This document shows positions 4,129-25,154 of a stretch of DNA of 27,934 bases, piece after piece; position 1 is the first letter of the stretch, and the number at the start of each line of letters is the position of its first letter. The notes below the pieces were generated by a model. The model ran no database searches. It was not told the DNA's origin and saw only the letters and a program-made list of their open reading frames with translations. The position numbers and the translations under genes were made by a program. This DNA comes from a virus, in the IMG/VR virus record IMGVR_UViG_3300048590_001245, positions 1-27,934 of that record; one strand, 5' to 3'.

Positions 4129-4310
4129 CCAAACTTTCCCTTCCCACTGCCTGGGTCGACCTGGACCTCGTTTTTCTCGACGATGTAGGCGACCAGCTCG
4201 GCGAGCAGATCCGCCAACACGCCTCCCCTGGCCCCGTCGGCGTCGAGCTTGAAGCCAAGCTCTTTCATCTTGGCGAGTATCCTCTCTCTCACTTCGGCCT
4301 GGTCAAGCAT
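4125..4310 (-). CDS. Small phage tail-cluster protein (61 aa), function unknown
   Basis: A 61-residue protein lies between gpV and gpW. It starts with MLDQAEVRERILAKMKELGF and has a predicted helix LADLLAELVAYIVEKNEVQV. It overlaps gpV by 8 nt and gpW by 4 nt, so it is almost certainly part of the translated operon. Many Mu- and P2-like tail clusters have a small open frame at this point. I do not recognise a domain. There are no cysteines and no membrane segment, so a soluble helical linker or baseplate accessory protein is the simplest reading. Confidence 0.68.
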   Translation of the reverse strand: MLDQAEVRERILAKMKELGFKLDADGARGGVLADLLAELVAYIVEKNEVQVDPGSGKGKFG

Positions 4311-12240: not shown

Positions 12241-12533
12241 ATGACCTCTCCCCTGGAAAGCTCGGCCAAGGCGTCGTCGATGGCCCGAGTGAGCACCTCT
12301 TCGACCTCGGCTGGCTCACCAAGGAGAGCCAGGGTGGGCGCCAGCGACGCTGGGATCGCAAGAAGCCTCGCCTTGGCTGCCATGACGGCCGCCTTCCAGA
12401 GCTTTTTCACCTCGTCGACTGGCACGAGCTGGCGCTCTTTCTCGAGCAGCTCCAGCTCGAGCTTGTCGGCTCTCACCTTGGTGAGCCGCACCTGCTCGAC
12501 CTCGAGGGCTCCTCCTTTGTGTTCTTCCCTCAA
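12237..12533 (-). CDS. Terminase small subunit, short Nu1-like
   Basis: A TTG at 12533 overlapping the recombinase stop (TTGA) gives 98 residues. The core TKVRADKLELELLEKERQLVPVDEV, followed by AKARLLAIPASLAPTLA, is the C-terminal oligomerisation part of Nu1-type small terminases. The usual N-terminal winged-helix DNA-binding domain (about 60-70 residues) is absent: starting earlier adds only 15 residues that overlap the recombinase. Either DNA recognition for packaging is supplied elsewhere or this is a naturally short relative. Downstream it overlaps the large subunit by 4 nt. Confidence 0.75.
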   Translation of the reverse strand: MREEHKGGALEVEQVRLTKVRADKLELELLEKERQLVPVDEVKKLWKAAVMAAKARLLAIPASLAPTLALLGEPAEVEEVLTRAIDDALAELSRGEVI

Positions 12534-14257
12534 AGCCTCACTCCGGTGGAGGTTTGCAGACGGACAGTCGGCAGCCACCTGGTGTCGACCTCGGCGTCGT
12601 CGATTTTTAGATAGGCGTAGGTCTGGTCGACGGCGCTGTGATTCATTTTGAGCTGGATACTACGGATATCGGCGCCGTCTTCGTAGGCAAACTTGGCCCA
12701 CGAGACTCTGAGACTGTGGGCTCTTCTTTGGCTTCCCCCGGCAGCAAGCGGGGTGATGCCGGCCTTGTCGAAAAGGACACTAATGCGGCGACAGCTGGTC
12801 GAAATGCCTAGCGGCTTGTCCTTGACCTCGAGAGAGGCCGAGAAAAGGTAGGCCTCGGGAGGGGCGTCGTGAAAGTAGCGCTCGATATAGGCCTCGACCA
12901 TGTCGGCGACTGGCTTTGAGACGCCGACAGTGTAGCGATCGGCGTTGGCCTTGCTTTCAATGGCGAGGCTTTTGCCGCGGCGTGTCTCGACGAGGTCGCA
13001 CTTTCTAAGCGAAAGAAGCCCGCTGTGGCGCATGCCGACGCCGGCCAAGAGGTAGACGGCCAAGAGGTCGCGGTGGGCCTTCCAGCGCTGGGGGATGTTC
13101 AAAGGCGGCGTCGACTTCAAGATCTCCTGGGCCGTGGCGATGACCTTGGCGGTTTCGTCTCGGGTGAGCGCCTCGGTCTGGACCTTTCTGTCGATCTTTG
13201 GAACCTTGAGCCTTTGAAGCGGGTTTTTCGGGATCTCCTCTTCGCCAGCGCAAAACTGCATGAAGGCTTTGACGGCCGACAGCTCGCTGGCGATGGTGGC
13301 CGGCTGCTTGCCAAGCTCGGCTCGGTACTGCTTGAAGGCCACGACGCTTTCCAGCGTGAACTTGTCGAGACGGTCGGCGGGGCTTTCGAGCACGTCCTTG
13401 GCAAAGGCGCGATAGGTGCCAAGGTGCTTGCGGTAGAGCTTGGCGGTGGCGGGCTTTCTTTGGCCGGAAAGAAAGATCTCGAGAAGCTGCTCGAGCCTCT
13501 CTTCGGGCGTCTCTGCGAGGTTTCCAAGCCTTGCTAGGCTTTTGGCCGGCTCGGACTTGTCGCTCTCCACCTTGCGCGCAAGCGGTCGCTGGTGGCCGCG
13601 CGTGTAGCGGTGGGCGGCACTCACCGACACGCCGTACTTCTTTGCCAAGGCCTCCAGCGTTGCGCCCTCTCGCCTCTCGCGCTGCATGTCGGAGATAAAG
13701 CTTTTGCCGTGGGCCTCGGCGATGCTCGGCAGCCGTCGGGGGCGGAGCTTTTTCTGATGAGTGTTCATGACCCCGGTGAGAAACGAGCTGGTCATCTGCT
13801 CTTTGGGATCAAGCAGCAGGTTTTCATCAAGCAGCCGCACGTAGAGGCCGTCTTTCCGGCGCTTCTCGTAGAGATCGACGAAGAGGTCGATGTCGAGCCT
13901 GGGGTGGTTCAGGCCATCGATCACCACCACACTGCGGTCTTCGGCCGTCAGCATCAGCGAGCGAAAGGAGGTATTCTTTTCGAGTACCACCCGCACCTTG
14001 TTCATGCGCTCGTCCAGGTGCGGCAGCATCTTGCCGGGATGCCGCCTCTCCTCCTGCGCCCGGTAGAGCCGCTTCATCTCCTCCAGTGAGCCACCAAGCG
14101 ACACGTAGTAGATCGTCAGCACCCGACTCTGCTCCTTCCCCAGCACGCTTTTGCGAATAAATAGCGCCCAAGCCCCACCCCTTTCTTCGTCGTGAGAAGT
14201 AGGAGGTAAGACAGGGTTACTCCGAAGGGCCGGGACGGCACCGAAGATGAGACGCAA
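12530..14257 (-). CDS. Chimeric recombinase: resolvase-like N-terminus plus tyrosine recombinase
   Basis: This probably integrates or excises the phage DNA. The C-terminal half is a tyrosine recombinase: a SAM-like core-binding domain at about 250-340, then a catalytic domain with Arg410 (AGVGMRHSGLLSL), His514-x-x-Arg517 (RRAHSLRVSW), His540 (KMNHSAVDQTYAYL) and probable nucleophile Tyr549. The N-terminal 220 residues resemble a serine recombinase: LFIRKSVLGKEQ with a serine at 37 where resolvases carry the catalytic one, SVVVIDGLNHPRL where they have a DRLSR motif, and a helix-turn-helix at about 198-218 (ATLEALAKKYGVSVSAAHRY). The DRLSR arginines are not conserved, so that domain may be inactive. 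The start is a TTG at 14257 with AGGG nearby; no better in-frame start is seen. The gene overlaps the small terminase. Confidence 0.8.
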   Translation of the reverse strand: MRLIFGAVPALRSNPVLPPTSHDEERGGAWALFIRKSVLGKEQSRVLTIYYVSLGGSLEEMKRLYRAQEERRHPGKMLPHLDERMNKVRVVLEKNTSFRSLMLTAEDRSVVVIDGLNHPRLDIDLFVDLYEKRRKDGLYVRLLDENLLLDPKEQMTSSFLTGVMNTHQKKLRPRRLPSIAEAHGKSFISDMQRERREGATLEALAKKYGVSVSAAHRYTRGHQRPLARKVESDKSEPAKSLARLGNLAETPEERLEQLLEIFLSGQRKPATAKLYRKHLGTYRAFAKDVLESPADRLDKFTLESVVAFKQYRAELGKQPATIASELSAVKAFMQFCAGEEEIPKNPLQRLKVPKIDRKVQTEALTRDETAKVIATAQEILKSTPPLNIPQRWKAHRDLLAVYLLAGVGMRHSGLLSLRKCDLVETRRGKSLAIESKANADRYTVGVSKPVADMVEAYIERYFHDAPPEAYLFSASLEVKDKPLGISTSCRRISVLFDKAGITPLAAGGSQRRAHSLRVSWAKFAYEDGADIRSIQLKMNHSAVDQTYAYLKIDDAEVDTRWLPTVRLQTSTGVRL

Positions 14258-14768
14258 AACCCTTGAGCCACAAGGAGCCCTCGCGCACGGCCATGCATTC
14301 TGTCGGTAAATGAACCTATGACTCTAAGATAGCAGACAAAAAGCGGCAGGTTTACGGCTTTCACCAAAGCAGCAACAGCTTCCGATACAATGCACAGAAA
14401 GCATGCAAATGGGTCCTTTCCCACCCCCCTTTTGCGGTGCCGGCGGCGCCGCGCCACCTCCCTAGAGAATGAAAAAATTTGCGGACTTACGGCCGGTGCT
14501 GGGAAGAAGGATGGTTCCGTATATACCTTTGCTTGTAGAAGCTTGCTTGAGCTCAAGTATATACAAAGTGCGGCCCGCTCCTCTCACCGCCAACCACCCC
14601 TTAACCACAGCCCCAAGCAGCCACGAAGGCTCGCGAATTTTTGAAATGCTCAGTGCCAGTCGAGAGATAGCCGAAGCATCATCTGTGTACTCAATAAGGT
14701 ACGCAATTGGGTACACAATATGCTAGCCTTCAAAGAGCAAAGAAATGCCCCCCGGAGGTGCCCGACCC
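14258..14768. other. Divergent intergenic region between prophage operon and accessory island
   Basis: About 510 bases separate the recombinase start from the plus-strand antitoxin. No convincing gene is seen: open frames here have poor codon structure. It holds two copies of the palindrome GTATATAC (14519-14526 and 14555-14562) about 36 bases apart, and a GC-rich palindrome GCGGCGCCGC near 14447. The antitoxin operator is at its right end. Because it adjoins the recombinase, a promoter for the leftward operon and possibly an attachment site would be expected here, but I cannot identify either. Confidence 0.4.
14684..14717. promoter_or_regulatory. Inverted-repeat operator of the Phd/RelE-like pair
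   Basis: TGTGTACTCAA and TTGGGTACACA form an inverted repeat with one mismatch and a 12-base spacer that contains a third GGTAC half-site. A TATGCT sequence, a possible -10 element, begins two bases after the repeat. The location just upstream of the antitoxin start suggests the autorepressor site usual for such pairs. No good -35 is visible. Confidence 0.5.
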
Positions 14769-15047
14769 ATGGAAACAACCAACGCCCGAAAGCTCAGAGC
14801 CGAGCTGAAAGACTATCTCGACCTCGCCGCCACAGAGCCCATCCGCATCAACCGTCGCTCCGGTGAAGCCTTCATCCTCATGCGTGAAGACCTCTACGCT
14901 TCCATGCAAAACGAAATCCTCTCCCTGCAACGCCGGCTGCTCGGTATGTCGCAGGCGCTCGAAGGACAAGGCAGCGCCGTCGAGCCCGGCGAGGTCGCCG
15001 AGCGCCTTCGCGCCCGTGCGCGGGCAAAGAAGGACGCCGCCACGTGA
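14769..15047 (+). CDS. Phd/YefM-like antitoxin
   Basis: This is the probable antitoxin and autorepressor of a type II pair. The ATG at 14769 has GGAGGTG eight bases upstream; an earlier ATG at 14745 lies before that site. The 92-residue protein reads METTNARKLRAELKDYLDLA, then PIRINRRSGEAFILMREDLYASM, the Phd/YefM N-terminal DNA-binding fold in which a short strand pair follows the first helix. The C-terminal LRARARAKKDAAT would contact the toxin. Its stop overlaps the toxin start as GTGA, so the two are co-translated. Confidence 0.75.
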   Translation: METTNARKLRAELKDYLDLAATEPIRINRRSGEAFILMREDLYASMQNEILSLQRRLLGMSQALEGQGSAVEPGEVAERLRARARAKKDAAT

Positions 15048-15388
15048 AAACTCAGCTCGTCGAGCTGCCAAGCTACCTGAGCGACCTGGAAGAGATCCTC
15101 GACTTTCTCGATAAGCAAGACAAAGACGGCGCCGCGCTCTTCTGGTTTGCCGACGAGCTGGAGGCGGTGCTGGAGTTTATCAAGACCAATCCGACCAAGC
15201 CGGGAGTCCACCCCGTCACGGGAGATCAAAGCTGGCCCTTTGGAAAAGGCCACTACCGCATATTTTTCAAATGCACGCAGGCGCCTGAGGCAACGCGCCT
15301 CTACCTGATCCACGTCATCGACAACCGGAGAGCCAATCTGCGCGTCTACCCAAGCAATCGACTGCCAACCTACAACGCCGACGACTAA
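15044..15388 (+). CDS. RelE/ParE-like toxin
   Basis: A 114-residue protein starting at GTG 15044. SYLSDLEEILDFLDKQDKDGAALFWFADELEAVLEFIKTNP is the helical hairpin of RelE/ParE-type toxins; it is followed by strands PGVHPVTGDQSWPFGKGHYRIFF and TRLYLIHVIDNRRANLRVYP. RelE members cleave mRNA on the ribosome, whereas ParE members block gyrase. The sequence alone does not separate these. It is intact and coupled to the antitoxin upstream. Confidence 0.72.
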   Translation: MKTQLVELPSYLSDLEEILDFLDKQDKDGAALFWFADELEAVLEFIKTNPTKPGVHPVTGDQSWPFGKGHYRIFFKCTQAPEATRLYLIHVIDNRRANLRVYPSNRLPTYNADD

Positions 15389-15406
15389 CCCCTCCCCCAA
15401 GAGGGG
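15389..15406 (+). terminator. Short hairpin after the RelE-like toxin
   Basis: CCCCTC, a CCCCAA loop and GAGGGG form a six-pair hairpin starting right after the toxin stop. There is no T-run, so it is at best a weak terminator or a transcript-end stabiliser. Confidence 0.3.
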
Positions 15407-15472
15407 CCGACGGCGCTACGCAGCTACCACCCAAACAAGTCAGCGTCGGTGCCTATAGAGCCCGCTGGAGAG

Positions 15473-15982
15473 ATGATGGTAAACGACGTTAACCAGAAAA
15501 AAGCGGACCTCAGTGAGGCCCAAACCCTTGAGGAGGACTTTCGAGCCCATCGACAAGCCGATTGGGTGGCCCCCCAAGGCGACGAGCGCTCTGAGATCCA
15601 CGAGATCGACCGACAGGTGAAAGAAAACCTCGCCAAGCGTCACGGCGGCGGCCGGCCCAAAAGCGACGAGCCCCTGGTGGCCGTCTACATGAAGTGGCCA
15701 GAGTCGCTGCTTGCCAACGCCAAGGAAGAGGCAAGGCGCCTCAACATCGGCTACCAGAGCTTCATCAAGATGGCCGTCACCGAGTACATCCGTCTAAGAC
15801 GCGCCAGAGAGCGCGAAACAGCCCAGCTCGGCGACAAGTACACGCTCGCAGAGGAGATCGAGGCCGCAAAGAACGACCGCCTCGCCGAGTGGGCGGGAAA
15901 GGTCGAGCCCCTCGATCCCGGCCAATCCGTCGACGAGGTGATCGACGACATGCGGGGAGGCCTCCCCAGAGAGCGCCGCTGA
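15473..15982 (+). CDS. CopG-family antitoxin-like protein, no visible toxin partner
   Basis: The ATG at 15473 (ATGATG) has GGAG a few bases upstream, giving 169 residues; an earlier GTG at 15449 lacks a ribosome site. The centre, GRPKSDEPLVAVYMKWPESL followed by EEARRLNIGYQSFIKMAVTEYI, is a ribbon-helix-helix of the CopG/BrnA kind that binds operators as a dimer. An acidic, charged N-terminus of about 75 residues and a C-terminal SVDEVIDDMRGGLPRE tail flank it. No toxin gene is adjacent: about 80 bases lie upstream and 240 downstream without a good frame. It may be an orphan antitoxin or a plain regulator. Confidence 0.65.
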   Translation: MMVNDVNQKKADLSEAQTLEEDFRAHRQADWVAPQGDERSEIHEIDRQVKENLAKRHGGGRPKSDEPLVAVYMKWPESLLANAKEEARRLNIGYQSFIKMAVTEYIRLRRARERETAQLGDKYTLAEEIEAAKNDRLAEWAGKVEPLDPGQSVDEVIDDMRGGLPRERR

Positions 15983-16161
15983 TACCAACGCCCTGCTCGA
16001 GACGCTTCTTCGGAGGGATCGGTCTGGCTGCCAGGCTGGGCGGCCGAGCTGGCGATGGCGAACATCAGAAGCCATGCCCCGATAGCCTAAAAATATCTGT
16101 TAATTCAGGCATATATATACGCGGTTAAGTTACTCGTTATTCTGACGATAAGGTGTGTACT

Positions 16162-16184
16162 TCACACATTAGTGTGAGTATAAT
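16162..16184 (+). promoter_or_regulatory. Promoter with overlapping operator for the MqsA-like pair
   Basis: TCACAC-ATTA-GTGTGA is a perfect six-base inverted repeat at 16162-16177, followed one base later by a consensus -10 TATAAT at 16179-16184. No good -35 exists at 17 bases, which fits a promoter whose upstream part is an operator. A repressor bound at the dyad would cover the -35 area. The HTH antitoxin encoded second in this operon is the natural candidate. Confidence 0.6.
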
Positions 16185-16221
16185 ACGGAAGGCTTGCGTG
16201 AAGAGAGGAACGATCAGCTGC

Positions 16222-16671
16222 ATGAGTGACTTCACCAAGAGAAGGCTCAAAGACTTCCACGAAGCTCTCAAGCCCCGCTGTCACACGGAGAAGAGTTTTC
16301 ACGACAGCTTTCTCGTCAGGCGAAACCATCTTGTGAAGAGCGCCGAGAAGGATCCCAACATGATCCGACTCAACCTCGGCGACGAGCAAATCGCAGCCGT
16401 CATCGCCACCGGTCAACTCAACGAAGACCAGTCACGCATGAACGGCACCCTGCCTGAGATTGCCCTCGAGGGAAAATTTAGAGACTTCCCCTGGACCGAG
16501 CTCGACACGACAGGGGGCGATAAAGCAGTCGACCATATTGAGCCGCTCGTGGTCGTGAGAGTTGTTGTCCGCCAAGGAGCAAGAAAGCACATCGTCGTCA
16601 CCGCCTATCGACCATGGCGGGAAATCATAAATCCCGATCTGCTTCCGGAGGTGACATATGACTTTTGGTAA
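16222..16671 (+). CDS. Putative toxin partner of MqsA-like antitoxin, family not recognised
   Basis: A 149-residue protein beginning MSDFTKRRLKDFHEALKPRC. A GTG at 16198 with GGAAGG upstream is an alternative start, but it would be nearly leaderless from the promoter at 16179. The N-terminal third is basic and helical. The C-terminal half alternates strands: IEPLVVVRVVVRQGARKHIVVTAYRPW. The order, small basic protein first and zinc-finger/HTH protein second with a 14-nt overlap, is that of MqsRA and HigBA modules, so a toxin is inferred from context. It shows no MqsR, RelE or HigB motif I can name. Confidence 0.55.
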   Translation: MSDFTKRRLKDFHEALKPRCHTEKSFHDSFLVRRNHLVKSAEKDPNMIRLNLGDEQIAAVIATGQLNEDQSRMNGTLPEIALEGKFRDFPWTELDTTGGDKAVDHIEPLVVVRVVVRQGARKHIVVTAYRPWREIINPDLLPEVTYDFW

Positions 16672-17218
16672 CCTGCAGCGCCTAGACCAACGCCGTCTCC
16701 AGGATGAGTTCGAAGACGCCCACGCCACGTGTGACTGCAAAGGCAAGTGGAAGGTCACGACCCGAGAAAACATCCCCCACACCATCGAAGGGCTCGGCAT
16801 GGTCCTCCTGGTGAAAGCGCCCTTTGTCGAGTGCGACACCTGTGAGGCGCTCTATTTCTACCCAGGGCTCGAGCAGAATCTCAGGCTCGGCATTGCCACA
16901 CAGCTCATCAACGATGCGCACGCTCTCGACAAGCGGCAACTGAGGTTTCTTCGCATCGTTGCCGGCATGACCCAGCAAGAAACCGCCAGTGCCCTCAACA
17001 TGGACGTCAAGGAATACAACAAGTTTGAATCAGTCAACAACGCGACCCGCCATCTCAGCATCGACCGGCAGTTTCGTCTCCGGGTGATCTATGCCCGCCG
17101 TCTAGGGCTCGATCTGAATGAGCTGGCACGTATCGCTGATCATCTCGACCCTGATCAGACCGTCCATCTGCCACAGCGGATCGAAAGCAATGACCTCTTC
17201 AACCGCCTCGCTCTTTAA
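16658..17218 (+). CDS. MqsA/YgiT-like zinc-finger plus HTH antitoxin
   Basis: A 186-residue protein with a GGAGG site before ATG 16658. The N-terminal domain has a CDC pair and, 30 residues later, CDTC (about residues 25-27 and 58-61), a four-cysteine zinc site as in MqsA. The C-terminal half is an XRE-type helix-turn-helix: LDKRQLRFLRIVAGMTQQET followed by ASALNMDVKEYNKFES, in which the helix after Q-Q-E-T is the recognition helix. It likely neutralises the upstream protein and represses the operon at 16162-16184. The C-terminal 40 residues extend beyond typical MqsA. Confidence in the fold is high, in the function moderate. Confidence 0.72.
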   Translation: MTFGNLQRLDQRRLQDEFEDAHATCDCKGKWKVTTRENIPHTIEGLGMVLLVKAPFVECDTCEALYFYPGLEQNLRLGIATQLINDAHALDKRQLRFLRIVAGMTQQETASALNMDVKEYNKFESVNNATRHLSIDRQFRLRVIYARRLGLDLNELARIADHLDPDQTVHLPQRIESNDLFNRLAL

Positions 17219-17326
17219 AGACAAAGGGGTGCTTAGCCAAAGGTCGGCACACAGGTGCGCTCGCCGTAGACGTTCTGCCGACGCAGAGCGCGCTTCCCCA
17301 TTTCTTGCTGGTGGAGTTTTTAGGCA

Positions 17327-17437
17327 ATGACTCCAGCACCTCTTGAAGTCTCCCCGCACGCTGCACTCCGCCTCAAGGAGCGTCGCAGCTCGCGCACTGA
17401 GGTGCGTCGCAGCTTACTGGAAGGACTGAGCCCGTGA
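17327..17437 (+). pseudogene. Shortened DUF4258-like gene (36 codons)
   Basis: ATG at 17327 opens a 36-residue frame: LEVSPHAALRLKERRSSRTEV and a further helix RRSLLEGLSP. This matches the start of DUF4258 proteins (S.HA..R..ER..S...V...L), which are normally 70-90 residues; the strand-rich C-terminal part is missing. The stop overlaps the GTG of the DUF2283 gene as GTGA, the usual arrangement for this pair, so the fragment has kept its coupling. It could be a decayed gene or a functional minimal leader. Confidence 0.5.
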
Positions 17438-17724
17438 AGGTGACGAAAGACGCCAAGCTAGACGTCGCATACATCAAGCTCCGCACCGGCAAGGTCGCAT
17501 CCACGGTCGAGCTGCGCCCGGGCATCTTGTTCGACCTTGACAAGAACGGCCAGGTGCTTGGGATCGAAGTGCTAGCATTGAGCCAACTCGCGCCGCTGCT
17601 CAAAGCAAGCGGCTCAAGCGGTCGAACCGCCCGAGCGCGTAGGCAGCAGCCAGGCAGCAGACGGCAAGAAAACGCGGAAAACCGAAGGTCATCGACAGCA
17701 GCGCAGCGGTCGTCAAATCGTTAG
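17434..17724 (+). CDS. DUF2283 family protein
   Basis: A 96-residue protein from GTG 17434. KVTKDAKLDVAYIKLRTGKVASTVELRPGILFDLDKNGQVLGIEVLALS is the complete DUF2283 pattern (D...D..YI.L..G.V..T.E..PGI..DLD..G...GIE.L). DUF2283 genes often sit next to DUF4258 genes and are suspected antitoxins. After residue 55 the protein turns into an arginine/glutamine/serine-rich tail without structure, which is longer than usual for this family. The partner upstream is truncated, so the pair is probably inactive as a toxin-antitoxin system. Confidence 0.7.
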   Translation: MKVTKDAKLDVAYIKLRTGKVASTVELRPGILFDLDKNGQVLGIEVLALSQLAPLLKASGSSGRTARARRQQPGSRRQENAENRRSSTAAQRSSNR

Positions 17725-17756
17725 TCTTTGTCGCAATCTAACCAGCTGGGTGCGGC

Positions 17757-17776
17757 GTCTTTTTGCAGAGAAAGAC
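17757..17776. terminator. Hairpin between convergent genes
   Basis: GTCTTT, an 8-base loop and AAAGAC make a six-pair hairpin. It lies between the plus-strand DUF2283 gene and the minus-strand HigA gene, where a bidirectional terminator could serve. There is no T-tract, so this is tentative. Confidence 0.3.
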
Positions 17777-17803
17777 GGGGGTCGGACGCAGGGAGCCGCT
17801 TGC

Positions 17804-18154
17804 TTACTCTTGTTCATCCTCGCGCCGATCCCAAACAATCCGGGGACGCCTGCCTAACACACGCCCCAGCTCCACAAGACTGGCTAGCGTGAGATTCGCC
17901 TCCGCATTGACGATCTTATAAGCCTGCCGAGTACTTGTTCCAAGTCTCGAGGTGAGCATGGGGACCCCGATTTTTTCAGTCGCCATGAACTCAACCACAG
18001 TCTTGCTCAGCTCTTCCTGCATCGCCTTCAAATCGGCAAGCTCTTGCAAAGCTTCGAGCCTGCTTTCCGCTCGCTCCTCTGGCGTCAGGCGCGCATTCAG
18101 CAGCTCGTCGACGTCCTGGAATTGTTCAAGTCGCTCTTTGGTAAAGCGAGCCAC
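17804..18154 (-). CDS. HigA-like XRE antitoxin
   Basis: A 116-residue protein from GTG 18154. Helical N-terminus (FTKERLEQFQDVDELLNARL), then LADLKAMQEELSKTVVEFM and a helix-turn-helix at about residues 60-100: MATEKIGVPMLTSRLGTSTR and AYKIVNAEANLTLASLVELG. This is the form of HigA partners of Gp49/HigB toxins. The toxin normally precedes the antitoxin, and a stub of one is found immediately upstream on this strand. It therefore appears to be a solitary antitoxin that may protect against related toxins or act as a regulator. Confidence 0.7.
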   Translation of the reverse strand: MARFTKERLEQFQDVDELLNARLTPEERAESRLEALQELADLKAMQEELSKTVVEFMATEKIGVPMLTSRLGTSTRQAYKIVNAEANLTLASLVELGRVLGRRPRIVWDRREDEQE

Positions 18155-18157
18155 AGC

Positions 18158-18253
18158 CTACTCCTTGTCCTGCAGCCGTTTTTGAGCAGTTTCGATGTCG
18201 GATGCTTGCGATCCCTTGTCATCACCGACGAGCAGGATGGCCCCGTCCTTCTC
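18158..18253 (-). pseudogene. Remnant of a HigB/Gp49-like toxin
   Basis: Reading the minus strand, 31 sense codons lie between an in-frame TAA (18254-18256) and a TAG. They translate as EKDGAILLVGDDKGSQASDI and a following helix ending LQDKE. This is the C-terminus of Gp49/HigB toxins (G.ILL..DK....DI..A...L). No start codon remains in frame. A strong ribosome site (AAAGGAG at 18263-18269) and an AT-rich, promoter-like stretch lie just upstream, so an internal deletion seems to have removed the toxin body while leaving its expression signals and the antitoxin. Confidence 0.65.
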
Positions 18254-18468
18254 TTATCGGATCTCCTTTGATTTTACTATATGAAAAATTTGTCATAAAG
18301 TACAAACTCTAGCCGCCCTATCCGACGTCATCCCAAGCCCCTCTACTCCCTCCATAAAAGTCGAGCTGTTGAGCCAGATTCTCACTTTCCCTAAAGACTT
18401 TGAGGCAAAAGTCCGACCTCCTCCTACAAGCCGCCTAGAGGAATCCGTGCCTGCTCGGAGTTGCCCGA

Positions 18469-21400
18469 ATGCCCAAGCACCACCAACTCTCCTCGGCTCT
18501 GACCGGGCTGTGGCTCGCCCTGGCGCCGCTGGCTGCTAGCGCAGGCCCGTTCCCGTTGTCCTACGGCGGACGCCTGACTGATGCGACCGGTGCACCGTTG
18601 TCGGGGCCGGTCGATCTTGCCGTGAATTTCTTCCGAAGCGAGACCGGCGGCAATCCGCTGCTCGGCGAGCCGGTCGTCGCCCCCTCCGAGACCCTTCAGG
18701 ACGGAGTTTTCCAGCTTACTCTCGATCTGCCGGTCGACGACTACACGACGATTTTCCCCTCGGCCGAAACGACCGCCTATATCGAGATCACCGACCAGAC
18801 CAACGCGCGCACCTATCCCCGGCAGCGCTTTACTGTCGTACCGCTGGCAGCCCGGGTGCCGGTCGACGGCAGCACCGTGACGTTTGACGACAACGGCCGC
18901 CTCAAGGCCACTCTTCCGGCCGCCGCGGCCAATACGCCCGGCGTGATCAAAGCGACCGGCGCCTTCGTCGAAGTCGACGCAGGGGGTGACATCACCGCCA
19001 TCAAACAAGCACAGAGCTTCTCCGGCACGCTGAGCGGTGACGTCAGCGGCACGCAGAATGCCACAGTGGTCACCAAGATCCGCGGCAAGGCCTTCACGGA
19101 TGCGCTCGATGCCAGCAATGACCAGAAGGTCGTCAAGTGGGACAACGCCACCGGCAGCTTCAAGCTCATGAACGACATTGCCAGCGGCGGCCTGAACGCT
19201 GGCGACGTCACGTCGACCACCATAGCCGACGGCACCATCGCAAACGCCGACATCAGCGCCTCGGCCAACATCGATGCCGGCAAGATCGGCACGGGAGCAG
19301 TCGACAACACGCACTTCAACTATTTGGCGGGCCTGACCTCAGACCCGCAAGCCCAGCTCAACGCCAAGCAGTCGACCATCACGGCCGCCACCGTCCTGCC
19401 GGTCGGCTCGCTCACCACGGACCTGCAGGCCGCCGTGACGCTCGGCGGCTATGGCAGCGGCGCGGGACAAACCGGCGAGCTGCGCTTTACCGAGCGTGAC
19501 GGGCTCGAGAGCAACTACGTCGGCCTCAAGGCGCCCGACGCGGTCGCAAGCAATCAGATCTGGACTCTGCCAGCCGCAGACGGCACGGCCGGCCAGCTGC
19601 TCAGCACAAATGGCTCGGGCGCCTTGTCTTGGGTGACAGCAACCACCGCCAGCTCGGGAGACACCCTGACCAACAAGACGATCAGCGCCGACGACAACAC
19701 GATCACGGGCATCGACGACTCGGAGATCAAAACAGGCGCGGGTATCGCCCGCGCCAAGCTGGCTTCCGGCACGGCTTCCCACGTGCTCGTCAACGACGGC
19801 AGCGGCGTGATGAGCTCCGAGGCGCAGCTTTCGATCTCCCGCGGCGGCACCGGGGCCGCCACCGCCAGCGCGGCACTCACCAACCTGCTACCCGCCCAGA
19901 CCGGCAACTCCGGCAAGGTTCTCTCGACCGACGGCACGGCGGCCTCGTGGAGTGCTCTCAACGCGGCCAACTGGGACACGGCGCACACCGACCGCCTGAA
20001 GTGGGACGGCGGCTCTGCCGGCCTCGTCGCCGCCACCGGCCGAACGAGCCTCGGCCTCGGCACATCGGCTACGCTCGATGCCGGCACCGCCGCCAATCAA
20101 CTGGTGCAGCTCGATGGCACGGGCAAGCTGCCAGCCGTCGACGGCTCGGCCCTTACCAGCCTCAGCCCCGCCAACCTCAGTGCGGCCGTGGCCGTAGCCA
20201 AGGGCGGCACCGGCGCGACGACGGCCGATGGAGCTCTGACGAATCTTCTGCCCGCACAGACGGGCAACTCCGGCAAGGTGCTCACGACCGACGGCAGCAC
20301 GACGTCGTGGCTTGCTCTCAGCACCAGCAACTGGAATACAGCCTACAGTGAGCGTCTGCAGTGGGACGGCGGCTCTACCGGCCTTGTCGCTGCGACGGCC
20401 CGCACCAGCCTAGGCCTCGGCACGGCCGCCACGTTGGACGTCGGCACCACTGCCAACAAGGTCGTGCAACTCGACGGCACTGCCAAGCTGCCCGCCGTCG
20501 ACGGCTCGCAGCTCACGAGCGTCGTCACGACAGCGACGGTCGACAGCGCCGGTGCCGTGATGAACGGCGACTTCGGCTCAAACGGCCTGATGGCCCGCAC
20601 CGGTGCGGGGACCTACAGCGTCGTGACCGATAACTCCGCCAACTGGGACACCGCCTACACGGACCGCATGAAATGGGACGGCGGTGCCACCGGCCTGGTC
20701 GCCGCGACCGCGCGCACCAGCCTCGGCCTTGGCACCAGCGCGACACTCGATGTCGGCACCACCGCCAACAAAGTCGTCCAGCTCGACGGTAGTGCCCGGC
20801 TTCCGGCCGTCGACGGCTCGCAGCTCACCAATTTGCCGGCAGCCAGTCTCACCTGCCCCACGGGCTATATCCTGGTGCCGGGCAATGCGAGCTTCACCAA
20901 CGCAAGCTTCTGCGTCATGAAGTACGAGGCTAAGAAGGATGGCGCCACCGGCCAGGCCGTCTCGACCGCCACGGGCACCCCCTGGGTCAACGTCTCCTGG
21001 TATGAGGCTCAAAGCGCCTGCAAGCGGGTCGGCGGCCACCTTGTCAACGAAGGCGAGTGGATGACCATCGCTCGCAACATCGAGGCAACCGCCATCAACG
21101 ACATCGACTCTGCAGCCGGCATCCAGCTTGCCACCGGCCACTCCGACAACTCTCCGGCTAGCGCCTTGGCCGCGGTGGCGGACCCCTCGCTTGCGAGCTG
21201 CACGCTGACCCTTGCACTCTCCGATGCCAGCAACAACTCCTGCGCCCTGCGTGGCCCCGGCACCTACGCCAACAACAGCACCGACTACGGCTACTACGGT
21301 ACCAGCAACGGCTACAGCACAGCCTACTCGGCTGGTGGTGCCAACAAGTCGCAAATGCGCACCCACGTCCTCAGCAACGGCAATGTCATCTGGGACATGG

Positions 21401-21711
21401 CCGGCAACGTCTGGGAGTGGACGGATGCGCAATGCGATACGACGAGCTGGTACACCACCGGATGGGTCGAGTGGAACAACGCCAACGTCACCGACTGGGA
21501 GAAACTAGTCGCTGGCCCAAGCGGCTCTCTGACCTCCTCAAACGGGGCCGGTCAGTATTATGGATGCAGCGCAAGTGGCAATGCCCTGCTCCGCGGCGGC
21601 CTCTGGTACTATGGCCCGATCGCCGGCGTGTTCGCCGCCACTCTGTACTATGGGCCGTCGGACGTCAGCAGCTCCGTGGGCTTTCGCTGCGCCTTCTCCA
21701 ATGCCCACTAA
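18469..21711 (+). CDS. DGR target protein: exported, tail-fibre-like repeats, FGE/C-type-lectin domain
   Basis: A 1080-residue surface or secreted protein that is diversified by the DGR. The N-terminus is a Sec signal peptide (hydrophobic ALTGLWLALAPLAASA, cleavage likely after ASA at about residue 24). A beta-sandwich-like domain (SYGGRLTDATGAPLSGPVDL) follows. Residues 500-790 carry three 65-residue copies containing RTSLGLGTAATLDVGTTANK and LPAVDGSQLT, the type found in phage tail fibres. From about 794 the formylglycine-generating-enzyme-like fold begins: CPTGYILVPGNASF, FCVMKYEA, VSWYEAQSACKRVGGHLVNE, MAGNVWEWTD, and GFRCAFS at the end. That domain presents 12 template-adenine-dependent codons at 1045-1069, of which 11 differ from the template. 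GGAG lies 9-10 bases before the ATG. There is no anchor at the C-terminus, so how it stays on the surface is unknown. Confidence 0.9.
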   Translation: MPKHHQLSSALTGLWLALAPLAASAGPFPLSYGGRLTDATGAPLSGPVDLAVNFFRSETGGNPLLGEPVVAPSETLQDGVFQLTLDLPVDDYTTIFPSAETTAYIEITDQTNARTYPRQRFTVVPLAARVPVDGSTVTFDDNGRLKATLPAAAANTPGVIKATGAFVEVDAGGDITAIKQAQSFSGTLSGDVSGTQNATVVTKIRGKAFTDALDASNDQKVVKWDNATGSFKLMNDIASGGLNAGDVTSTTIADGTIANADISASANIDAGKIGTGAVDNTHFNYLAGLTSDPQAQLNAKQSTITAATVLPVGSLTTDLQAAVTLGGYGSGAGQTGELRFTERDGLESNYVGLKAPDAVASNQIWTLPAADGTAGQLLSTNGSGALSWVTATTASSGDTLTNKTISADDNTITGIDDSEIKTGAGIARAKLASGTASHVLVNDGSGVMSSEAQLSISRGGTGAATASAALTNLLPAQTGNSGKVLSTDGTAASWSALNAANWDTAHTDRLKWDGGSAGLVAATGRTSLGLGTSATLDAGTAANQLVQLDGTGKLPAVDGSALTSLSPANLSAAVAVAKGGTGATTADGALTNLLPAQTGNSGKVLTTDGSTTSWLALSTSNWNTAYSERLQWDGGSTGLVAATARTSLGLGTAATLDVGTTANKVVQLDGTAKLPAVDGSQLTSVVTTATVDSAGAVMNGDFGSNGLMARTGAGTYSVVTDNSANWDTAYTDRMKWDGGATGLVAATARTSLGLGTSATLDVGTTANKVVQLDGSARLPAVDGSQLTNLPAASLTCPTGYILVPGNASFTNASFCVMKYEAKKDGATGQAVSTATGTPWVNVSWYEAQSACKRVGGHLVNEGEWMTIARNIEATAINDIDSAAGIQLATGHSDNSPASALAAVADPSLASCTLTLALSDASNNSCALRGPGTYANNSTDYGYYGTSNGYSTAYSAGGANKSQMRTHVLSNGNVIWDMAGNVWEWTDAQCDTTSWYTTGWVEWNNANVTDWEKLVAGPSGSLTSSNGAGQYYGCSASGNALLRGGLWYYGPIAGVFAATLYYGPSDVSSSVGFRCAFSNAH
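19969..20835 (+). repeat. Three 65-residue coding repeats in the DGR target
   Basis: Copies at 19969-20163, 20329-20523 and 20641-20835 encode near-identical blocks, beginning NWDTA or NWNTA and ending AVDGS.LT. Copies 1 and 2 are also preceded by a shared 45-residue block (GGTGA...TNLLPAQTGNSGKVL), so a longer unit was duplicated. These probably form the stalk that holds the variable domain away from the cell. Confidence 0.8.
21582..21695 (+). repeat. DGR variable repeat (VR)
   Basis: This 114-bp segment ends 16 bases before the end of the target gene. Against TR (24071-24184) it is identical at all 92 non-adenine positions. Thirteen of TR's 22 adenines are replaced: seven by T, four by C, two by G. 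Changed codons encode residues 1045, 1047, 1048, 1050, 1051, 1058, 1060, 1061, 1065, 1067 and 1069. The last 20 bp (GTGGGCTTTCGCTGCGCCTT) contain no adenine and are the expected initiation-of-mutagenic-homing region. Just past 21695 the two repeats diverge at non-adenine bases. Confidence 0.97.
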
Positions 21712-21750
21712 GTCCTTGGTTTCTTGGACCTTGGTCCTTGGTTTTGGGGT

Positions 21751-21769
21751 CTGGGGGCGTAGCCCCCAG
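21751..21769 (+). other. DGR hairpin downstream of VR
   Basis: CTGGGGGC and GCCCCCAG form an eight-pair GC-rich stem with the loop GTA, 39 bases after the target stop and 55 bases after VR. In Bordetella phage BPP-1 a similar hairpin/cruciform behind VR aids target recognition. Here the loop is three bases and the distance is longer. It might also end transcription of the target gene, though it has no T-run. Confidence 0.65.
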
Positions 21770-21776
21770 CGGCTCC

Positions 21777-21803
21777 ATTTCGGAAATTTCCGAAATTTCG
21801 GAA
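21777..21803. repeat. 9-bp repeat cluster 1
   Basis: Three tandem units ATTTCGGAA, ATTTCCGAA, ATTTCGGAA, then a diverged fourth. Units alternate between the two orientations of TTCSGAA, so 21777-21796 is a perfect 20-bp palindrome. The cluster starts seven bases after the VR hairpin. Confidence 0.85.
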
Positions 21804-21874
21804 ATTGTGCCGAAACAGCACATTCGCGTAAGTTGTTGATTTAATTTATTATGTCTATTTCTCCATCAGGCAGC

Positions 21875-21942
21875 ATTTCCGAAACTTCGGAAACGTCACT
21901 TCCGCAACTTCCGCAACTTCGGAAATTTCCGAAATTTCGGAA
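21875..21942. repeat. 9-bp repeat cluster 2
   Basis: Seven units of the form AYTTCSGMA (ATTTCCGAA, ACTTCGGAA, a 5-base break, ACTTCCGCA twice, ACTTCGGAA, ATTTCCGAA, ATTTCGGAA). It lies 79 bases upstream of the DNA-binding protein start and is the most degenerate cluster. The last three units repeat the alternation of cluster 1. Confidence 0.85.
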
Positions 21943-22020
21943 ATTATGCCAGTCAGGAATTTTCTCCTTTTGAGTGAGGATATCCCCTGCTAGGGTGCTT
22001 TGCGCTCCCAATCAAGGATC

Positions 22021-22719
22021 ATGCCGCCCGCGATGCCACGCCGCAGCCAGCCCCAATCCCAGCTCGAGGTAAGCGTCGATACTGCCGCGAAATCTCTCGG
22101 TGTTTCTGAGCGCATGGTCCTCAACTACATCAAGGCCAGACAGATCAAGGCGCTGCGTGTCGGCAAGCGCTGGTATGTCGACCTCGCCTCGCTGGAGGCC
22201 TTTCGGCAGGCCAGCGGTCTCACGGAAAGGGAGCCTCAGGCCATTTCCGAAACTTCGGAAATTTCGGAAATTTCGGAAATTTCGGAAACGCTTCCGAAGT
22301 CGCCGGAGGCCACAGGCAGCGAACGCCCGCCGCGCCCCAGGCGGGCCTCCTCTGGGAAGAACCTCGACGGGCTTGCCTGCTACCGGCTGTGCCTGGAGGC
22401 TTTCCGGATGCCGATGTGGGGGGACGCCGACAAGCTCCGCTACGGCCATCGACTGCGTGATCTGCAGGGCGCGATTCTCGAGCAGCTCGGCTCCGGGTTC
22501 TATTCGTATGGCGCAGAAAAGCGCGCCTACTATGACCGCTCCCGAGGACTGATCGGTGCGGCGTTGGCGCTCGTTTACAGTGATCCTGATGCGAGGCTGC
22601 GTTGGGCCAGCGACGTCGCCTTTCTGGAGGGCGATGTGCTGCCCGCGTTTGCGTCTTTGATCAAGAAAATCGAGCGTGGTCAGGACCGCGACGGCCGGGG
22701 GCGACGCCATGAGCGCTAG
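22021..22719 (+). CDS. HTH_17/excisionase-like DNA-binding protein with helical C-terminal domain
   Basis: The ATG at 22021 has AAGGA very close upstream; ATG 22033 is an alternative. The protein has 232 residues. Residues about 20-70 are an excisionase/MerR-like winged helix: VDTAAKSLGVSERMVLNYIK then RQIKALRVGKRWYVDLASLE. The linker at 75-93 contains SEISEISEIS, encoded by 9-bp repeat cluster 3. From about residue 117 a helix-rich domain of about 105 residues follows (ACYRLCLEAFRMPMW, LRYGHRLRDLQGAILEQL, GLIGAALALVYSDPDARLRW, VLPAFASLIKK). Its size and helix layout recall Avd, which is encoded next, so it may be a diverged Avd-like bundle. Its stop overlaps avd by 11 nt. It probably regulates the DGR or helps recognise the target; this is inference. 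Confidence 0.8.
   Translation: MPPAMPRRSQPQSQLEVSVDTAAKSLGVSERMVLNYIKARQIKALRVGKRWYVDLASLEAFRQASGLTEREPQAISETSEISEISEISETLPKSPEATGSERPPRPRRASSGKNLDGLACYRLCLEAFRMPMWGDADKLRYGHRLRDLQGAILEQLGSGFYSYGAEKRAYYDRSRGLIGAALALVYSDPDARLRWASDVAFLEGDVLPAFASLIKKIERGQDRDGRGRRHER
22243..22287 (+). repeat. 9-bp repeat cluster 3, inside the DNA-binding protein gene
   Basis: Five tandem units (ATTTCCGAA, ACTTCGGAA, then ATTTCGGAA three times), followed after ACG by the palindromic CTTCCGAAG to 22299. The nine-base period keeps the frame and encodes ISE/TSE triplets in the linker. The first two units match the first two of cluster 2. Confidence 0.85.
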
Positions 22720-23086
22720 AAGCCCCAAGATCCTCGCCGACAGCTACCAATTGACCGTCATGGTATTTGGAAGAACACGCAGCTTTCCCAAACACTACCG
22801 CCCGACACTTGGCCGCCGCCTGGAGGACCGGGCGATCGACCTGACGTCAGCCGTCCGCGTCGCTAGCCTTGCCAAAAGTGGCGGCAAAGACTCGCGGCGG
22901 TCCGCCTCCTTGGAGAGCGCCTCGGAGCACTTGGACGAGATCCGGATTCTGCTTCAGCTTTCGCATGACATGCAGATCATTCCGACCACCGGCTATGCCG
23001 AGCTGAGCGAGCTGACCGCCGAGGTCGGTCGGCAGATCGGTGGCTTTGGGAAGTTCGAGGCGGATGCCCGTGACCACGCTCCTTGA
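22709..23086 (+). CDS. avd: DGR accessory variability determinant (Avd)
   Basis: A 125-residue four-helix bundle protein that forms a pentameric barrel, binds the template RNA and is needed with the reverse transcriptase for adenine-directed cDNA synthesis. ATG 22709 has GGGGG six bases upstream. Characteristic blocks: SFPKHYRPTLGRRLEDRAID, then SLESASEHLDEIRILLQLSH, and EVGRQIGGFGKF at the end, equivalent to the FP...R..LG.RL, L..A...L...R.LL.L..D and GR.LGGW motifs of Avd. Basic residues in helices 1 and 2 would face RNA. It overlaps the upstream gene by 11 nt and the reverse transcriptase by about 23 nt, so expression is coupled. Confidence 0.92.
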   Translation: MSARSPKILADSYQLTVMVFGRTRSFPKHYRPTLGRRLEDRAIDLTSAVRVASLAKSGGKDSRRSASLESASEHLDEIRILLQLSHDMQIIPTTGYAELSELTAEVGRQIGGFGKFEADARDHAP

Positions 23087-24017
23087 CGAGGTGGCGGCGT
23101 TCGAGAACCTTGCACGGGCTTTCCAGCTCTGCGCACGCGGCAAGCGTGCCTCGACCGGCTATCAGCGCGCCATGTTTGCCCACGGCGAGAAGCTCGTCGC
23201 CATGCGCGGCAAGATCCTAGCAGGCCAGTATCGCTGGGGACGCTACCGGGAACTCTTGGTGAGAGACCCCAAGTCGCGTCGCGTCTTGGCGGCTCCCTTT
23301 ATGGACCGCGTCGTCCATACAGCCATCCACGAGATCATCGAGCCGATCCTCGATCCCCTGGTACCGGAGAGCGTGTATGCCTGCCGTCACGGCAAAGGCA
23401 ACCGGAAGGCCGCGACGGATCTTCTTGCGGTGCTTCGCGAGCATGGCAAAGACCGCTTCGTCATCAAGCTCGACGTCGCGCAATACTTTGCCTCGATCCG
23501 GCATGACGTGCTGCTCGCCAAGCTTTTCGAGGCGCTGCCAGACCGGAGTCTCGAGCCTCTTCTGGCTTCACTCCTGCAAAGCCATGCCGAGTATGCCTCT
23601 CGCGGCTACGGCATCCCGATCGGAAACCTGACGTCCCAGGTGTTTGCCAACTTTTATCTCGTCTCCGCCGACCGTGTCGCCACCGAGCAGCTCAAAGGCG
23701 GCTTCTACTTCCGTTACATGGACGACATGGTCCTCGGGGGCCGCAATAAGTCGGTGGTCCTCGACGCGGCCGACGCCGTGACCCAGCACGTCGAAAGCGA
23801 GCTGAGACTTTCGATTCCCCACTTCAAGCGGATGCCGCTCGGTAACGCGCCCGTGCCGTTTTTAGGATATGTGCTCGATCACGGCGGCTATCGGATTCTA
23901 AGCCGCAACAAGAGGAGGTTTGCCAAGCGGATAGGGCGCCTGGAACGCTCGGGAGCCCGCCCGAGCCGGATGGCGCAGAGCGAGCTGTCGTTTCGTTCTT
24001 TCGAGAATTTGCTATGA
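23064..24017 (+). CDS. DGR reverse transcriptase
   Basis: This enzyme copies the TR RNA into cDNA with random bases opposite adenines. ATG 23064 has GAGG six bases upstream and gives 317 residues; a GTG at 23040 is earlier but has no better site. Key motifs: KLDVAQYFASI at about 135-145 (motif 3, first catalytic Asp), GIPIGNLTSQVFANFYL at about 183-199, in which IGNLTSQ replaces the QGxxxSP of other reverse transcriptases and is diagnostic of DGR enzymes, and FRYMDDMVL at about 216-224 (catalytic YMDD). FLGYVLDHGGYRIL is the motif 7 region. No maturase or endonuclease domain is present, as expected. It is followed 53 bases later by TR. Confidence 0.96.
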   Translation: MPVTTLLDEVAAFENLARAFQLCARGKRASTGYQRAMFAHGEKLVAMRGKILAGQYRWGRYRELLVRDPKSRRVLAAPFMDRVVHTAIHEIIEPILDPLVPESVYACRHGKGNRKAATDLLAVLREHGKDRFVIKLDVAQYFASIRHDVLLAKLFEALPDRSLEPLLASLLQSHAEYASRGYGIPIGNLTSQVFANFYLVSADRVATEQLKGGFYFRYMDDMVLGGRNKSVVLDAADAVTQHVESELRLSIPHFKRMPLGNAPVPFLGYVLDHGGYRILSRNKRRFAKRIGRLERSGARPSRMAQSELSFRSFENLL

Positions 24018-24070
24018 AAAAGGTGTCGGGCTCAGAATGGCCGCGCCTGCCGTTCAGCGTTGTCCGAAGG

Positions 24071-24184
24071 TGCCCTGCTCCGCGGCGGCAACTGGAACAA
24101 TGGCACGAACGCCGGCGTGTTCGCCGCCAATCTGAACAATGGGCCGTCGAACGTCAACAGCAACGTGGGCTTTCGCTGCGCCTT
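24071..24184 (+). ncRNA. DGR template repeat (TR) within the template RNA
   Basis: This 114-bp copy is the unchanging donor for VR. In VR's frame it reads ALLRGGNWNNGTNAGVFAAN and so on. Eleven of the 12 adenine-bearing codons begin with A and ten are AAC or AAT, the codons that reach most residues without stops when adenines change. The final 20 bp match the VR end perfectly. It lies 53 bases after the reverse transcriptase stop, so the template RNA is probably the 3' part of the operon transcript. RNA ends are unknown. Confidence 0.96.
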
Positions 24185-24237
24185 GTCGTTCGCCCGGCGG
24201 CCGTGAGACTTGGGGGTTCGCTGTCTGCGTGAGGGAA

Positions 24238-24259
24238 GTCTTTTCAGCGATGAGAAGAC
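24238..24259 (+). other. Hairpin with GNRA loop downstream of TR
   Basis: GTCTTTTCA and TGAGAAGAC pair over nine positions with one wobble, closed by a GCGA tetraloop. It begins 53 bases after TR, where BPP-1 carries a structured spacer needed for cDNA priming and Avd binding. It is a candidate structural element of the template RNA. Confidence 0.5.
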
Positions 24260-24317
24260 CACGCTGAGCCTTCTGATGTTTGTCCCAAGGCACTTCGAGC
24301 CAGACACCTGTGGCTGA

Positions 24318-24351
24318 CCGAGCTGAGGGTGGGAAACCGCCCCCAGCTCGG
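24318..24351. terminator. Large GC-rich hairpin closing the DGR
   Basis: CCGAGCTG and CAGCTCGG form the base of a long stem with inner GGTGGG/CCGCCC-type pairs and an AAA-containing loop. It lies between TR and the convergent ParE-like gene. No T-run follows, so it may be a bidirectional terminator or the 3' end of the template RNA. Confidence 0.5.
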
Positions 24352-24372
24352 GGTCCGAATCGATATCACCTG

Positions 24373-24699
24373 TCAGCTCCCAAAGAACTTCGGCGGTAGA
24401 TACGGAAACACACCATGAATCATGACGTCAGCCGAACTGTACGAATAAAGAATTACGTCGCCCTGAGCTGTGCCGGTCGATGCGATCGTCTTCACGCGGT
24501 ACGCTTTGTCCGCAGTCAGCGGCGCCGCCTCGGGATAACGCGCAAGCTCCTCGATTGCCGCGAGGACGTGCTCACGATAGCGGCGCCTGGTCTCTAACGG
24601 AAACGGCTGAAAGGCACCCATCGCACGAGCACGGCCACGAAATCGCCGTCGCGCACCTTCGGAGGCCCACCGCCATGGCAAGGCGGCGCGCTCAGTCAC
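24373..24699 (-). CDS. ParE/RelE-like toxin
   Basis: The GTG at 24699 overlaps the antitoxin stop by 8 nt and gives 108 residues. The first 27 are arginine- and alanine-rich, then GAFQPFPLETRRRYREHVLAAIEELARYPEAAP is the helical part and AYRVKTI...GDVILYSYSSADVMIHGVF the strands of a ParE/RelE-like fold. Assignment rests on this pattern and on the paired antitoxin. The long basic N-terminus is atypical, and a start at ATG (about residue 27) would give a more standard-length protein. Confidence 0.6.
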   Translation of the reverse strand: MTERAALPWRWASEGARRRFRGRARAMGAFQPFPLETRRRYREHVLAAIEELARYPEAAPLTADKAYRVKTIASTGTAQGDVILYSYSSADVMIHGVFPYLPPKFFGS

Positions 24700-25042
24700 G
24701 GTCTTCGGCCTCCAGCGCGTCGAGCTCGACATCTTCCTGTTCGGCCGCGGCGAGCTCCTCAGCTGCTGTCGTAGTCGGCAGGGGCTCCTGGTGCTCGAAG
24801 AGCTGCCAGAAGGTCAGCAGCTCCAAGTAGCGTTCTTCGGTCACAACGACCTTGATGGGATGGCCGCGGTGGACGATGCGCAGGGCCTTGTCGTCTGTCA
24901 CGTCGCCGAGAAGGGCGTTACCTTCGGGGCTTCGTATCTTGCTCACCGTAACGGTGCCGGCAAAAAGTGGCTGTTGGCTACGCGCTTTGGCGGCCGGAAC
25001 CGTAAGCTCTTTGGCGGGAGCCGGTTGGGGTTCTGGTCTCAT
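24692..25042 (-). CDS. Phd/prevent-host-death-like antitoxin
   Basis: A 116-residue protein with AAAGGA six bases before ATG 25042. A flexible, proline/alanine-rich N-terminus of about 30 residues precedes DDKALRIVHRGHPIKVVVTE and RYLELLTFWQLFEHQEP, the Phd-like strand-helix pattern (a short basic strand and a Y.EL helix). The C-terminus is very acidic (AAEQEDVELDALEAEDRD), suited to covering a basic toxin. It precedes and overlaps the toxin gene, and three repeated half-sites lie upstream. The unusual N-terminus makes the DNA-binding part uncertain. Confidence 0.62.
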   Translation of the reverse strand: MRPEPQPAPAKELTVPAAKARSQQPLFAGTVTVSKIRSPEGNALLGDVTDDKALRIVHRGHPIKVVVTEERYLELLTFWQLFEHQEPLPTTTAAEELAAAEQEDVELDALEAEDRD

Positions 25043-25059
25043 AACGTCCTTTGCCTTTC

Positions 25060-25091
25060 AGGATCTGTTTAAAGATCCATTTTCAGATCCT
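25060..25091 (-). promoter_or_regulatory. Three-half-site operator upstream of the Phd-like antitoxin
   Basis: GGATCT at 25061 and AGATCC at 25073 and 25085 sit at exactly 12-base spacing, so all three lie on about one helical face. AGGATCTG and CAGATCCT form a perfect inverted repeat at the outside. This fits cooperative binding by the antitoxin or its complex and autorepression. The site lies 18 bases upstream of the start codon. Confidence 0.55.
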
Positions 25092-25154
25092 AAGGCTTAT
25101 CGGCGTCTTTGTCCAGAAGCTTGAGCAGGCAATATGTAACCATTATCATTGAAA

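Follow-up and report, generated by a model that had tools for sequence, protein, structure and literature searches.

A helix-turn-helix protein encoded with diversity-generating retroelements, and its possible docking role at repeat arrays beside the variable repeat

The IMG/VR virus record IMGVR_UViG_3300048590_001245 (27,934 bp, called the window here) holds a complete diversity-generating retroelement (DGR), which consists of a target gene with its variable repeat (VR), avd, a reverse transcriptase (RT) gene, a template repeat (TR) and a gene for a protein that joins a helix-turn-helix (HTH) domain to a predicted helical bundle. The reading of this HTH-bundle protein that we favour, though only tentatively, makes it a DNA-binding subunit dedicated to one subclass of DGRs: it would dock the Avd-RT-TR-RNA complex at the target and favour retrohoming. 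The Xis/BldC-like winged helix would bind the repeats 3' of VR, namely the TTYCSGAA iterons and possibly the heptads too, with several protein copies side by side on the array, while the Avd/S23-like bundle would contact the Avd-RT-TR-RNA complex. This would keep the complex at its target and promote retrohoming into the adjoining VR. We infer all three elements of this reading: the binding of the arrays, the contact of the bundle with Avd or RT, and the effect on retrohoming. The original prediction had proposed that such a protein could bring the complex to the target DNA, and the repeat arrays close to VR lend this idea circumstantial support.

Seven loci with both VR and TR were compared, which fell into five lineages (the window with L010; L011; L072 with L073; L070; L074); L008, whose TR is missing at a contig end, stands outside this set. 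Heptads close to TCMTTGG were found directly 3' of VR in 7/7 loci, and start within about 40 nt of the VR end. Because the motif had initially been spotted by eye in these very loci, the first test was partly circular. When each lineage was left out in turn from the heptad matrix, with units that were marked by eye, the post-VR interval was the top-scoring one in the whole locus on both strands for six of the seven loci; for the exception, L010, one of 235 bins outscored it. The controls were 44 viral DGR loci without the HTH-bundle gene, several of them near-duplicates, from which 36 VR/TR pairs were obtained, and none of these 36 VRs was followed by at least three heptad units within 110 bp. 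The heptads were rejected as a dispersed repeat: a triple TTGG pattern occurs 3–11 times per genome. Because these counts are near those of the reversed-pattern control in some genomes, only the clustering of heptads beside VR is meaningful, not their presence. Hairpins 3' of VR, an established DGR target element (PMC3240598), were found in the window, L070, L072 and L074. Only that of L070 was clearly beyond shuffled sequences (z -5.8, against -2.1 for the window), and one loop, GACA in L070, fits GRNA.

The TTYCSGAA iterons lie 3' of the heptads, mostly 9–11 nt apart (at multiples near that spacing in L074), in six of the seven loci and four of the five lineages. The number of units was 6 in the window, 6 in L010, 5 in L072, 3 in L073, 12 in L070 and 9 in L074, where 0.2 or less was expected, and the enrichment between VR and the gene reached P 4e-10 to 1.5e-25 over these six loci. 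L074 was held out of the motif definition, and its nine units gave P 4e-13. Across seven whole genomes the doubled iteron occurred at eight places, all of them between VR and the gene (five in G015, two in G016, one in G019); the three genomes that hold it are 4.3–4.7 Mb each and have zero copies outside the DGR array. The control DGR loci, 363 kb in all, gave no match to it. Among 2.9 million viral contigs, the triple iteron gave 25 stretches, which fall on five contigs from the group of the window and on 19 further contigs. The iteron array is rare, yet not exclusive to DGRs. Host-wide mobile repeats as an account of the iterons were ruled out in the seven genomes, although a few unrelated triples are present in other viral contigs. 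Iterons also stand within the coding linker of the HTH-bundle gene (four units in the window, three in L010). The linker length tracks the DNA repeat number, since the iteron array is expanded in the coding linker.

Residues 18–63 of the HTH-bundle protein match Pfam HTH_17 (E 1.7e-9, 38.3 bits versus a cut-off of 27), and this profile matched all nine homologues at E 1 or better, in agreement with the DNA-binding domain that had been proposed earlier. The HTH is 36–42% identical to Pukovnik Xis over about 50 residues, and the winged helix is closest in fold to phage Xis (4j2n) and BldC (6ama). The homologues share 29–56% identity in either domain (30–54% in the HTH alone), in alignments that exclude the truncated L069/L075 copy and L005. 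The AlphaFold2 full-length model was built from a two-sequence alignment and has a mean predicted local distance difference test (pLDDT) score of 68, with five models spanning 44.8–68.0; block means are 72–90 across residues ~121–220, and the linker is low-confidence. Its C-terminal helices (116–128, 142–160, 164–186 and 196–225) bear out the helix-rich C-terminal region of about 105 residues noted before. When the bundle was compared with the PDB, the top five matches were all S23/Avd structures (2rld, Z 12.0; 8ub8, 11.5; 8ub7, 11.2; 4dwl, 11.1; 2gsc, 11.0), with a root-mean-square deviation (rmsd) of 1.9–2.1 Å across 98–104 residues, and thus an unrelated fold, the outcome that would have spoken against an Avd-like module, was not what the comparison returned. 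Unrelated helical bundles may score up to Z 13, and rows less than 1 Z apart count as tied, so this fold match is suggestive only.

Other comparisons of the C-terminal domain were less favourable. The bundle modelled alone was poorer (pLDDT 61.5), and Avd structures ranked second and third (Z 6.5 and 6.3) behind ALPK1 (8.1). Foldseek gave no significant match for the bundle (best S23 row E 1.1); against BFVD and the PDB the HTH matches dominated, with nothing reaching E 0.001. Profile library scans of the window protein returned no family match for this domain, the S23 Pfam (PF05635), bAvd and DivGenRetAVD profiles had zero matches at E 10 among 8/8 C-terminal domains, and the profile of the bundle, run against PDB sequences, produced chance-like matches only (portal protein, E 0.043). 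Homology of the bundle to S23 was tried by profile alignment and dropped as uninformative, with 16 of 100 shuffles scoring as high and a HepT control at 3 of 100 over 16 columns only. Because the profile comparisons were null and the fold scores tied, the domain is called Avd/S23-like in fold and is not filed as a member of either family. These results suggest that the C-terminal domain resembles Avd/S23 in predicted fold. The Avd-type module of the original prediction thus survives in its predicted fold, while its sequence side does not: profiles were null, Foldseek was nonsignificant, unrelated bundles scored up to Z 10.5, and profile-profile alignment did not reproduce the residue pairing that sets LRYGHRL... 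against RPTLGRR...

The distribution of the protein was examined in 58 genomes of one phylum, centred on an Oligoflexaceae metagenome-assembled genome (G001), and in a second set of 383 relatives. The C-terminal domain occurs in six of the 58 genomes in seven copies, one of which is cut by a contig end, and in the same six among the 383. All seven copies adjoin a DGR RT and Avd, and every complete locus with the HTH-bundle gene has a separate avd. Two of 46 viral DGR-RT loci carry the domain, both from the window's own phage group, and this group also accounts for all public viral contigs with relatives (five contigs, 93–100% identity, one a fragment). No relative of the bundle was found in the plasmids and phage records searched, and matches between viral proteins and the HTH-bundle protein span the HTH only. 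The window and the Oligoflexaceae genome share the gene order target, HTH-bundle gene, avd, RT, TR, at 36% identity. In most loci the HTH-bundle gene comes before avd and the two coding sequences overlap; the overlap claimed for the window is indeed present, and measures 11 nt (avd starts at 22709). The identities of HTH, bundle, Avd and RT covary between six lineages (r 0.67–0.82; 7–32 of 720 permutations as high); for the distances of the HTH-bundle gene against those of RT and Avd, r is 0.67–0.80. These DGRs are live, to judge from the adenine-specific VR/TR differences, which fall at TR adenines in 95 of 97 cases across seven loci.

Two of the nine close RTs (E 2e-49 or better) were without the HTH-bundle gene, namely those of L110 (G020) and L111 (G011). 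L111 has a more distant RT and an Avd-type gene. L110 (G020:C166, 3114–4936) has an RT of the clade and a TR-like stretch, while avd and the HTH-bundle gene were not found there; upstream is an open reading frame (ORF) that by eye resembles an IS91-type transposase and runs as far as the RT start. L110 is probably a broken DGR. VR searches gave nothing convincing for L071 and L110, and L184 was rejected as a VR, with 51 of 146 positions different and 18 of these at A.

The strongest competitor to docking is that the protein regulates transcription of the operon, which we consider rather unlikely. The winged helix would then sit on an iteron operator upstream of its own DGR operon, and the bundle would only oligomerise. 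In the window, L010, L072, L073 and L070 the arrays occupy the intergenic region ahead of the gene, in most loci this gene comes first and overlaps avd translationally, and in L074 an ORF between the array and the gene may share the operon. A known parallel is CvkR, a MerR-type repressor of its own CAST element (PMC9938897). However, the gene of L071 (G013) also heads avd and RT, yet has neither an adjoining VR nor an array. In L070 (G015) the avd-RT unit is inverted and reads the opposite way with no array upstream of avd, while the HTH-bundle gene and its array remain next to the target, directly 3' of VR and on the target strand. In addition, the heptads start by the VR end and not at a promoter, and a conserved bundle would be unusual for a simple regulator. 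Docking is preferred over plain autoregulation because the array stays with VR in the L070 inversion and is absent in L071, which has no VR.

Several observations weigh against docking. The arrays stand between the target and the operon and may be an operator, and in L074 the operon perhaps begins with the intervening ORF. L011 is without a full iteron and is enriched in TTCCG/CGGAA instead (seven in 175 bp, P 1e-7). The zero iterons of L071, where no VR was found, can be counted on this side as well as for a link to VR. In the stretches retrieved from the 19 other viral contigs with triple iterons, neither the HTH-bundle gene nor Avd or RT is present, and a remote VR-like copy in L186 (G001), adenine-biased over its core, has no array; if that copy came from retrohoming and not from gene conversion, the arrays are dispensable in places. 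BPP-1 retrohomes without a protein of the HTH-bundle type (PMC12875486). As for the bundle, unrelated bundles rank next after S23/Avd (talin, Z 10.5 with rmsd 3.8 Å; PMEI, 10.4; ROP, 10.2), and the domain is less basic (isoelectric point 7.1–9.1) than Avd (8.7–9.5). Its hhalign comparison with Avd was null, with 77 of 100 column shuffles scoring as high, whereas the positive control, Avd versus S23, was detected at E 0.0014 over 103 columns.

Three further explanations were weighed. The protein could be a second RNA-handling module, with a bundle that enters the Avd pentamer on TR-RNA or imitates it, an HTH that is loosely used or vestigial, and unrelated arrays. The fold match to Avd, the overlap with avd and the covariation with Avd and RT agree with this, but the HTH is conserved in 9/9 homologues at 30–54% identity and the arrays are concentrated at HTH-bundle loci, which makes it improbable. 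Slightly less credit is given to arrays that are neutral minisatellites beside a protein with another role: the unit number varies in the gene's own linker (4 versus 3) and 19 unrelated viral contigs also have triple iterons, while the iteron recurs 3' of VR in four of five lineages whose RTs are only 45–64% identical, and nowhere else in three genomes. An excisionase (recombination directionality factor), or another phage regulator that is beside the DGR by chance, was already disfavoured and is very improbable. Excisionases are the best PHROG matches of the HTH, and an integrase gene lies in the window at 12530–14257, 7.8 kb away. Nevertheless, the full protein is found only with DGRs, including loci without phage genes among the few neighbours tested; no integrase was found among five non-DGR neighbour proteins of L070, L072 and L074 (two libraries) or two of L071, and the matches to viral proteins cover the HTH only.

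A further claim, which we hold as a possibility and more loosely than docking itself, is that the target is chosen by a sequence-specific protein: the winged helix attached to the Avd-like bundle would read the iteron array and park the mutagenic RT complex by VR. If this is true, shifting the array would shift mutagenesis. How DGR cDNA enters VR is still incompletely understood (PMC12875486), and a DGR-linked DNA-binding protein with candidate sites by VR makes target recognition testable and may offer a protein-based address for programmable mutagenesis. The accessory proteins named for DGRs are Avd, HRDC and MSL (PMC3240598, PMC10053308, PMC12875486, PMC6642488, PMC10769870). In the titles and abstract openings of the DGR literature, with full texts partly covered and the 2018 Nucleic Acids Research survey outside the scope, a head that binds DNA sequence-specifically was reported for no DGR protein; Avd, accessory, helix-turn-helix, DNA-binding and neighborhood did not turn up as terms in PMC8144416.

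Like Avd of BPP-1 (4dwl, 8ub7, 8ub8), the C-terminal domain is encoded with a DGR RT, and the four-helix bundle predicted for it equals Avd in size (100 residues, rmsd 2.1 Å and Z 11.1 to 4dwl). It differs in that sequence profiles show no similarity to Avd, an extra HTH is attached, the domain is less basic and a separate avd is present in every complete locus. The S23 proteins of 23S rRNA intervening sequences (2rld and 2gsc, Z 12.0 and 11.0; PF05635) are the best structural match, but the HTH-bundle protein has no S23 Pfam match at E 10 (8/8), is fused to an HTH and is linked to DGRs. Its N-terminal domain resembles the MerR-like winged helices of the Xis and BldC type (4j2n, 6ama), which are single-domain proteins, whereas here a bundle and a DGR link are added. 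The binding of BldC to direct repeats in DNA is cooperative and involves multimers (PMC5859096). HRDC and MSL, accessory proteins of some DGRs (PMC10053308), differ from it in domains, and neither was matched in library scans of the DGR proteins. As in the hairpin/cruciform of the BPP-1 target, a cis element stands just 3' of VR here, hairpins included. The BPP-1 target requires nothing past +24 (PMC3240598), whereas the present loci also have direct repeats and palindromic iterons.

Table 1. Positions in the window of the DGR parts, the repeat arrays and the domains of the HTH-bundle protein
Feature	Position	Strand	Basis or remark
DGR target gene, 1080 aa	18469..21711	+	ORF; N-terminal signal-like sequence by eye; C-terminal FGE-sulfatase/C-type-lectin-like domain, PF03781 E 3.6e-6
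Variable repeat (VR)	21582..21698	+	88% to TR; 13/14 differences at TR adenines
Heptad direct repeats	21713..21741	+	first unit 2 nt past target stop codon
Hairpin 3' of VR, 8-bp stem, 3-nt loop	21751..21769	+	folding of 77-nt stretch, z -2.1
Iterons, three TTYCSGAA palindromic units, 9-nt spacing	21778..21803		motif match
Iteron, one unit	21876..21883		motif match
Iterons, two units, 9-nt spacing	21926..21942		motif match
HTH-bundle protein gene, 232 aa	22021..22719	+	open ORF, ends in TAG
HTH_17/Xis-like winged helix, residues 18-63	22072..22209	+	Pfam; fold matches Xis 4j2n, BldC 6ama
Iterons within coding linker, four units	22244..22287		three units in relatives L008/L010
Predicted S23/Avd-like four-helix bundle, residues 116-225	22366..22695	+	AlphaFold2 model and structure comparison
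avd, 11-nt overlap with HTH-bundle gene	22709..23086	+	ORF; PHROG, bAvd, NCBIfam matches
DGR reverse transcriptase	23064..24017	+	RVT_1 3.3e-17, phrog_1423 2e-72
Template repeat (TR)	24071..24187	+	VR/TR comparison

The avd product of the window was matched by bAvd at 1.1e-8, slightly short of the cut-off, by NCBIfam DivGenRetAVD at 1.7e-12, also below the cut-off, and by the PHROG family 'Avd protein of DGR' at 9.7e-17; the bAvd profile matched 8/8 Avds at E 1 or better, with the window Avd below the curated cut-off. In L011 a BrnT/BrnA-like pair (by eye; 2658–3174) sits between avd and RT, and in L071 an AEP-TOTE conflict-system primase (PF22548, E 5e-97) is encoded directly downstream of the DGR (3155–5926). 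G001 has extra FGE-type genes in L186 (G001:C312, 143–258 and 1238–1349) and L187 with VR-like copies of the L011 TR; the adenine-biased copy lies within the gene body, and these genes are possible remote targets.

The phage head, tail, terminase and integrase genes of the window occupy the - strand left of 14257. The DGR lies beyond the integrase on the right, in the region 14700–25100, and is encoded on the + strand, with neighbouring small gene pairs that look toxin-antitoxin-like by eye (14745–15388 and 24373–25042). With the non-phage neighbours of other loci, the DGR may be owned by the host beside a prophage and not by the phage. The DGR targets (18469–21711 in the window, 9217–14103 in L070, 944–5944 in L072) have a signal-like start followed by phage-fibre-like repeats, which recalls the large fibre adhesins of Bdellovibrio, one of them with a C-type lectin tip that matches Mtd (PMC10769870).
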